From positions 5,592,501 through 5,656,500 of the forward strand of contig NZ_CP067395.1 in NCBI RefSeq assembly GCF_017355525.1: a DNA stretch of 64,000 nucleotides, read 5' to 3'. The notes beneath the pieces are model-generated. The model had not been told where the DNA came from, made no database searches, and was given only the letters and a program-made list of their open reading frames with translations. A program made the translations under genes and the position numbers. This DNA is from Lysobacter enzymogenes. Its GTDB lineage: Bacteria; Pseudomonadota; Gammaproteobacteria; Xanthomonadales; Xanthomonadaceae. Positions 54,541 through 56,066 of this stretch are shown in pieces. Every line of letters begins with the position of its first letter. The first letter of the stretch is position 1.

Positions 54541-56066
54541 TGCGGCTGCGCGGCGGGCCGCGTCGCCCGCCGCAGGCTGGCGAAATTTTCGCCAATCCCG
54601 CCGAAGCCTTGGCGTTGCAGGCGTGAAACCCGATTCCAGCGCGGCTGTCCGCATGCTTGTCCACAGGCGGTGTGGATAGCGGCGCGCGGCTTCGACGGCG
54701 TGCGGCGACGCGCGCGATCCGGGCGATCCGCCGCGTTGGACAAAAAACAGCCAATCTCGCGCGAAGCCCGTCGTACAAGGCGTGGAACCCGATTCCCCGG
54801 TGTGTATCCGCATGCTTGTCCACAGCCTGTGTGGACAGCGAAGCCGCGCGCGCGGCGCGGCAACGAGCGTTTCGGCCGCAAAACAGCGCGATGCTTCGTG
54901 GCGCCGCGAGCGCTTCCCGCTCCGGGAATGCCTGGACAAAAATTAGCCAAACCCGCGCGAGCCTTGGCGTACAAGGCGTGGAACCCGATTCCACGGCAGC
55001 TGTCCGCATGCTTGTCCACAGGCGATGTGGATAGCGCCGCGCATTCGCGCCGAAGCGCCTGCGAGGAAACCCGGCGAAAAGCGAGGCCGCAGCGTCGTAG
55101 CGCAGCGCTCGCTGTCGCCGCCGCGAGCGCAAACGACGTTGGACAAAATATCGCCAAACTCCGAAGACCCGCGCCGGATAAGGCGTGAAACCCGATACGC
55201 GTGCGTGTATCCCAATGCTTGTCCACAGGCGGTGTGGACAGCGGTCCGCAGCCGCGTCGAAGCGTGTGCCGGGAAACCCTGCAAAAAGCAAGGCCGCAAC
55301 GCCGAAGCGGACGGCGGTCGGCCATCCGCACGCGCGCGAACCGCATTGGACAAAAAATAGCCAATCTTTGGAAAGCCGCGCCGGATAAGGCGTGAAACCC
55401 GATACGCGTGCGTGTATCCCAGTGCTTGTCCACAGGCGGTGTGGATAGCGATGGCGCTTCGGCGCGGTCGTGCGGTCGCGGCGAAGCCCGGCGCCGCGCC
55501 CGACGGGGCAGGGCGACGACGCAGGGCCTGGACGCTGGTGCGCCGCAGCACCCAAGCGCAGGCGCGCGCCCGGCACGGGCGAGCCGCGCGCTGCGCTCGG
55601 GCGCGCGCATTCGAACCGCCGCCGATCGCCGCGAAGCCCTGCCGCGCAAGGCCTTGAGCCAGGTCCGCAGTCGCTTGGGCGCAGCCGCATCCGCAGGCGC
55701 GGCGAACCCCGCGGCGGGCGCTGCTGCGAATGCCGATGCCCGCCGCAAAGTCAAGGAAATTCACTGGTCATTTTCTCGCCAAACCTCTTGCAATGCTTAT
55801 GCCGCAAGGCTTGGCGCGCGCAATCGAAAAACTGTCCGCAGGCTTGTCCACAGGGGATGTGGACAACTGCAACGCAGTGGTCAGCAAACGTACAAATGGC
55901 CGCAACCGCCGGCCCGTCTAGGCCGGCGCCGGCGCGGCGAAAGGCTTGAGCCGGCTGGTTTGCGCAGCGTTCGCGCCGCCGCCGCCGCGGCCCCGGCCGG
56001 CTTCCGCGCGCCGCCCGCCTGTGCGAGGCTGCGCGTCGCTGCCGCCGCACCGTTCAAACGCTCCGC
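54541..56066. other. Non-coding repeat region between folP and miaA
   Basis: These 1526 bases hold six related repeat units (listed as one array) and GC-rich spacers. Frames are open on both strands, giving long apparent proteins up to 546 residues. The reading frame shifts between several units (spacings 159 and 196 bases are not and are only partly multiples of three), and the apparent peptides are low complexity. I treat the region as non-coding. AT-rich 55760-55800 may hold the promoter of miaA-hfq-hflX. Confidence 0.6.
54580..55870 (+). repeat. Tandem array of units with paired DnaA-box-like motifs
   Basis: Each unit of about 105 bases has three parts: an AT-rich motif (TTGGACAAAAAATAGCCAAT), a middle block (AAGGCGTGGAACCCGATTCC or close), and a pair TTGTCCACA, five bases, TGTGGA(T/C)AG. 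TTGTCCACA begins at 54657, 54816, 55012, 55219, 55426 and 55844. Spacings are 159, 196, 207, 207 and 418, the last being twice 209, as if one unit had decayed. Unit 6 (55768-55870) is divergent but has perfect boxes on both strands. TTGTCCACA is the DnaA-box form of GC-rich bacteria; the role is inferred. Confidence 0.85.

Follow-up and report, generated by a model that had tools for sequence, protein, structure and literature searches.

Tandem three-box modules lie between folP and miaA

The window analysed here is a 64-kb stretch of the Lysobacter enzymogenes chromosome. Within it, the interval between folP (TIGR01496) and miaA (TIGR00174), both scoring above their model cut-offs, contains six direct copies of a module of about 104 bp (window 54576-55867), all on the forward strand. 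Read from left to right, each module comprises a palindrome, a middle element, box III, a 3-bp gap, box II, a 5-bp gap and an inverse box I; on the opposite strand, the same order reads as a forward-pointing box I, 5 bp, a backward-pointing box II, 3 bp, and a likewise backward-pointing box III. Box II has the sequence TTGTCCACA, and the inverse box I is CTATCCACA, CTGTCCACA or TTGTCCACA. The preliminary description had reported six units here in which TTGTCCACA faces an inverted TGTGGA(C/T)A at a distance of 5 bp, and we find all of them. Its tally of 12 box-like sites correctly captured the box II/box I pairs and overlooked a third DnaA-like box in each unit. This weaker box III lies 3 bp ahead of each TTGTCCACA, reads CTGTCCGCA, GTATCCGCA, GTATCCCAA or GTATCCCAG, and brings the array to 18 box-like sites.

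Unit 1 (54576..54681) carries its palindrome at 54578-54594, box III at 54645-54653, box II at 54657-54665 and the inverse box I at 54671-54679. In unit 2 (54735..54840), the same elements occupy 54737-54753, 54804-54812, 54816-54824 and 54830-54838, respectively, and in unit 3 (54931..55036) they lie at 54933-54949, 55000-55008, 55012-55020 and 55026-55034. Unit 4 (55138..55243) has the palindrome at 55140-55156, a weak box III of sequence GTATCCCAA at 55207-55215, box II at 55219-55227 and box I at 55233-55241. Unit 5 (55346..55450) is built likewise, with the palindrome at 55347-55363, a weak box III (GTATCCCAG) at 55414-55422, box II at 55426-55434 and box I at 55440-55448. Closest to miaA, unit 6 (55765..55867) contains the palindrome at 55765-55781, box III at 55832-55840, box II at 55844-55852 and box I at 55858-55866, and differs from the others in its middle element. 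Successive units are spaced by 159, 196, 207, 207 and 418 bp. The 207-base period described earlier thus applies to units 3, 4 and 5; the accompanying claim of near identity did not stand, with units 3 and 4 agreeing at 70% over 207 bp and one comparison yielding 82% matches.

The AT-rich segment that had been assigned to each unit is present and turned out to belong to a larger element, a 17-bp palindrome or near-palindrome of the form TGG-N11-CCA with an AT-rich centre. In 6/6 units, this element starts exactly 79 bp before box II. Between palindrome and boxes, a conserved middle element extends from about -60 to -18 relative to each box II, represented by GGCGTGRAACCCGAT in units 1-5 and CTTGCAATGCTTATGCCGCAAG in unit 6. 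It centres around GCCTTG or GCCCGT...GGCGTGRAACCCGATTCC in units 1-3, GATAAGGCGTGAAACCCGATAC in units 4 and 5, and CTCTTGCAATGCTTATGCCGCAAGG in unit 6. Allowing one mismatch, the 64-kb window holds 10 TTGTCCACA sites, nine of which fall inside the 1.3-kb array. Shuffles of the whole window contained 5.0 such sites on average and 3 of 100 reached 10, so it is the clustering of TTGTCCACA, and not its total, that is unusual. An RNA element was rejected as an explanation for the repeats: the single Rfam match, to mir-639, is a chance hit (25.2 bits, gathering score 100, E 0.82). A hairpin at TGGAACCCGATTCCA was likewise dismissed, as our comparison of the units indicated that it is not kept in all of them.

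Further core sites in the chromosome and the position of the origin

Searching the whole 5,947,018-bp contig for TTGTCCACA-N5-TGTGGA with up to two mismatches returned 13 sites at four loci (26 rows over both strands), compared with 0 and 1 for the reversed controls. Besides the six sites between folP and miaA, these comprise five in a second, inverted array and single sites at 1,327,014 and 4,446,568. The second array, which had previously been overlooked, lies just outside the window at 5589772-5590544, about 2-2.7 kb before its start and 57 kb from the first array. Its five units sit between two genes that both end towards it, a hemJ-like gene (TIGR00701, 86.8 bits, under the cut-off of 138) and a putative alkaline phosphatase gene. 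The two arrays form inverted repeats enclosing about 57 kb in this genome and could mediate an inversion. Of the single sites, that at 4,446,568 is upstream of priA and that at 1,327,014 is near the presumed terminus; both have TGG-N11-CCA or a near form of it at about -80, and neither shows the strict Fis consensus. A profile built from the units detected those of the arrays and the module at 1.327 Mb but missed the priA site, and it found nothing in 24 other sampled stretches of the genome.

The array had been judged an unlikely main origin, and our data agree. The dnaA gene lies on the same contig at 3.94 Mb, 1.7 Mb from the array, with nine TTATCCACA sites near it at 3.940-3.950 Mb. Across 25 sampled stretches, GC skew was negative in 10 of the 12 between 0.75 and 3.75 Mb and positive in 11 of the 13 running from 3.935 Mb round to 0.45 Mb, a pattern that places the array away from the main skew switch; in 8-kb blocks inside the window, the sign of the skew varies. 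Together, the location of dnaA and the skew of the 25 stretches rule out the array as oriC. The genome also encodes Fis (NF001659, 108.1 bits, cut-off 99), Hda (TIGR03420, 230, cut-off 194.8) and PriA, as well as IhfA and IhfB, the latter two with model scores above their cut-offs.

The array is shared by all 20 Lysobacter genomes examined

We extended the analysis to 20 Lysobacter genomes. The exact box II-box I pair was found in every one of them, and tblastn placed the array between folP and miaA in all 20, in a gap of 986-2890 bp. The distance from the last box II to miaA is 204-274 bp in 19 genomes and 447 bp in G002. Position is thus shared throughout, and unit number differs, from 3 to 9 when counted by the exact pair and from 4 to 11 by profile; the profile count comprises 147 units at E 1e-3, includes weak ones and was made on loci of ~3 kb for G018 and G019; for G004, two profile counts gave 9 and 10. 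In 118 of the 147 profile units, box II is TTGTCCACA. The sequence between units varies within the arrays. Unit number correlated with genome size (Spearman 0.49, p 0.029, 20 genomes), a result we set aside because the species are related and the sizes partly rounded.

To define the extent of the module, we used 100 genus units from 22 arrays in 18 genomes (all except G018 and G019). Conservation of the boxes in this set is by construction, because possession of the exact box II-box I pair was the criterion for selecting its units. An ungapped alignment of the 68 units left after removal of near-duplicates showed conservation rising at -80 and falling at about +23. Five of the 20 genomes (G000, G005, G015, G017 and G019) also have the second array next to the hemJ-like gene, with 4-5 units by profile. 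A single module with a CAGCC spacer, the counterpart of that at 1,327,014 in L. enzymogenes, is present in at least 14 of the 20, and a further single match suggests G017 as the fifteenth; in all 12 genomes fetched besides G000, this module adjoins the same response-regulator gene. Along the replication arm, eight of nine genomes have the array at 0.56-0.68 of the ori-ter distance and G001 has it at 0.20; for the single module, the values are 0.82-0.95 in seven of eight genomes and 0.42 in G001.

Core and palindrome recur beyond the genus

Within the family, the exact pair occurs in 52 of 119 genomes, five of the 119 being members of the genus. Among the 47 non-genus genomes with the pair, it lies 0.2-3.9 kb upstream of miaA in 14 and not in the other 33, for which many sites are on other contigs or miaA is outside the comparison. 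In 12 family regions that we fetched, the core is flanked by folP and miaA in seven (G060, G093, G119, G086, G045, G106 and G067), unit-profile matches lie between these genes in G056, and the core is beside folP in G113, with no miaA in the fetched stretch. In the regions from G034 and G025, folP adjoins miaA without the core, and that from G040 has neither folP nor the core. In other genera of the family, the core stays beside folP, with miaA 1.4-3.9 kb away.

Across the class, the DARS-core pattern TCCACA-N5-TGTGGAYAA-N3-TG was found in 207 of 369 genomes, and its reversed control was absent from every one. Class genomes outside the genus have at most six exact matches, and the six of G173 are dispersed; close core pairs occur in G313, G327, G419 and G364. 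G497, from a sister family of the same order, carries a small tandem array of three such cores in a stretch of about 430 bp (G497:C24). We then inspected 55 class loci, made up of the best-ranked loci of the pattern search and those of seven chosen genomes, with some overlap (six picked for high counts, G497 as belonging to the same order). In 13 of the 55, priA is within 1.5 kb of the core, and at E 1e-6 none has uvrB, mutH or miaA nearby. Since priA is close to many class cores, priA-linked DARS may be widespread. Finally, searching 84,980 species genomes, a set from which genomes near the L. enzymogenes source may be left out, for TGTCCRCA-N3-TTGTCCACA-N5-TGTGGA gave 39 stretches. Of these, 28 are from Lysobacteraceae (25 titled Lysobacter), and the 11 others are mostly from betaproteobacteria, together with a Steroidobacteraceae bin and three actinomycetes; all stretches with at least two matches are from Lysobacteraceae.

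The palindrome starts at -80..-78 in 79 of the 100 genus units and in 26 of 63 contexts from other family genera, where shuffles gave a mean of 0.06 and a highest value of 1. The strict published Fis consensus fits the palindrome in two of the six L. enzymogenes units (3 and 5) and in 39 of the 100 genus units. At the class loci, this consensus has 14 matches at -79..-77 over 56 contexts, peaking at -78, compared with a mean of 0.39 and a next-best value of 3 for three-wide windows elsewhere; none of 500 base shuffles reached 14. The same search at -84..-72 found no Fis consensus in E. coli DARS1 or DARS2, so E. coli differs in having no such element near -78. A protein other than Fis may bind the palindrome. 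No IHF consensus occurs at a steady place in the units, which also argues against IHF as the binder of the middle element.

The core layout is that of E. coli DARS sites

DARS sites of E. coli recharge the replication initiator protein DnaA. In the description given in PMC5742627, the spacing is the same at DARS1 and DARS2, and box I opposes boxes II and III. This arrangement, with the DARS1/DARS2 spacings, is found in all six units. The MG1655 DARS1 core reads TTATCCACT-ATTCC-TGTGGATAA-CCA-TGTGTATTA, and the DARS2 region contains TTATTCACC-TTTTC-TGTGGATAG-AGT-TGTGAAGAA (L220 3136-3170); orientation and both spacings in the Lysobacter module equal those of DARS1 and of one DARS2 site. For another DARS2 site, our analysis allows a 3-bp gap, and the table of PMC11317965 a 2-bp gap. 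As stated in that report, E. coli DnaA prefers box pairs 2 or 3 bp apart, including those of DARS1 and DARS2, and such pairs correspond to boxes III and II of the Lysobacter unit. On this basis, the core layout defines the array as a putative DARS-type element.

The similarity to the individual E. coli sites is partial. DARS1 (bioD-uvrB) shares the three boxes, the opposition of box I to II and III, the gaps of 5 and 3 bp and a location distant from oriC (0.66 of the arm), but it is present in one copy, has TTATCCACA-type boxes, has no Fis consensus at -84..-72 and is flanked by other genes. DARS2 (rppH-mutH) has the same core layout and is described as requiring Fis and IHF for activity. It lies at 0.41 of the ori-ter distance, and differs from the array in being a single locus and in having its Fis and IHF sites elsewhere. 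As the IHF feature of DARS2 is absent from the array, we do not call the latter a DARS2. Sequence usage differs as well: box II of the genus units is mostly TTGTCCACA, whereas the boxes of the dnaA region are TTATCCACA and the E. coli DnaA-box consensus is TT(A/T)TNCACA.

A probable DnaA-reactivating locus

Taking these data together, we consider the array to be probably a multi-copy DnaA-reactivating sequence (DARS) locus, its activity being inferred from the layout of its sites. In E. coli, ADP-DnaA is produced by Hda, and the presence of DnaA, Hda, Fis and IHF genes in L. enzymogenes is in keeping with a DARS function. For the E. coli sites, PMC8682772 describes boxes I and II as bringing ADP-DnaA head to head, leading to ADP release. 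By analogy, ADP-DnaA remaining after initiation would bind boxes I and II of a Lysobacter module face to face, and the contact between them, aided by a palindrome-bound protein for which Fis is a candidate, would let ADP leave DnaA. A further protein, perhaps on the conserved middle element, could assist ADP release, and DnaA would thereby take up ATP again for a new round of initiation. With several modules in tandem, a single locus would have a correspondingly larger capacity for reactivation, and its position some way down the replication arm would increase this capacity once the fork has passed. Several observations count against the DARS reading: the weak box III in units 4 and 5, the divergent sequence of box II, the partial fit to the Fis consensus in the units and its lack in both single modules, the missing IHF consensus, the position of the array in G001, a location other than the uvrB and mutH upstream regions used in E. 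coli, and the failure of the unit profile to detect similarity in E. coli DARS1 and DARS2.

The preliminary description had proposed a site of the datA or DARS kind; orientation and spacing of the boxes uphold the second of these and the layout argues against the first. In a datA-like role, the boxes would hold back initiation by titrating DnaA or stimulating the hydrolysis of ATP. The 18 box-like sites and the five units of the second array would suit such a sink, as would the report that E. coli datA and DARS sites together hold much titration capacity (PMC12371093). Bacillus subtilis and Streptomyces coelicolor also have DnaA-box clusters away from oriC, a feature they share with the array; unlike the role proposed here, they are presented in PMC10950094 as datA-analogous repressors of initiation. 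E. coli datA (in the MG1655 stretch 4392658-4399252) is likewise a DnaA-box cluster upstream of miaA, but it is about 6.5 kb from miaA-hfq-hflX, with other genes between, and lies nearer to oriC, at 0.2 of the arm, as compared to 0.57 from dnaA for the array. Moreover, datA is IHF-dependent and its boxes form two pairs with 3-bp gaps, one tandem and one convergent; the minimal datA region, an IHF site plus DnaA boxes 2, 3, 4 and 7 in their layout, was not found in the array, whose units have no IHF consensus. We therefore regard a sink or inactivator as unlikely and, because the array geometry fits DARS, keep positional orthology with datA as a lead only.

It is more doubtful still that the array serves to regulate miaA-hfq-hflX under the control of DnaA and Fis. 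The distance of 204-274 bp from the last box II to miaA in 19 of the 20 genus genomes would agree with such a role, and the array may have some effect on the miaA promoter, but a promoter has no need of tandem units up to 2.9 kb away, the second array and the single modules lie beside other genes, and other genera retain the core next to folP with miaA at a distance. A lineage-specific repeat containing DnaA-box-like sequence by chance, with no role in replication, had also been considered and is very improbable: unit number and inter-unit sequence do vary, but the inner spacing is fixed across genera, the profile matched none of the 24 other sampled stretches, and the pattern search, with its near-empty controls, was confined to four loci at conserved places.

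If the array is indeed a DARS locus, the gain and loss of units (4-11 by profile, with a second array in one subclade) could tune DnaA reactivation and initiation timing, making the Lysobacter DARS a kind of rheostat, and the combination of a DARS core and a palindrome at 79 bp could be an ancestral class-wide module that the E. coli sites no longer show; we put both ideas forward tentatively, as possibilities. The mode of action of DARS was elucidated at two loci of E. coli. Among the best-ranked matches in the open PMC literature, none dealt with tandem arrays of DARS or with such sites in Lysobacter or Xanthomonas. With 4-11 modules at one conserved place, and with the 13 core sites that L. 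enzymogenes has at its four loci, the genus offers a natural dosage series for studying whether the timing of initiation depends on reactivation capacity. That an element keeps a fixed distance to the core throughout the class points to a general DARS layout, which provides a search pattern for DARS sites outside enteric bacteria.
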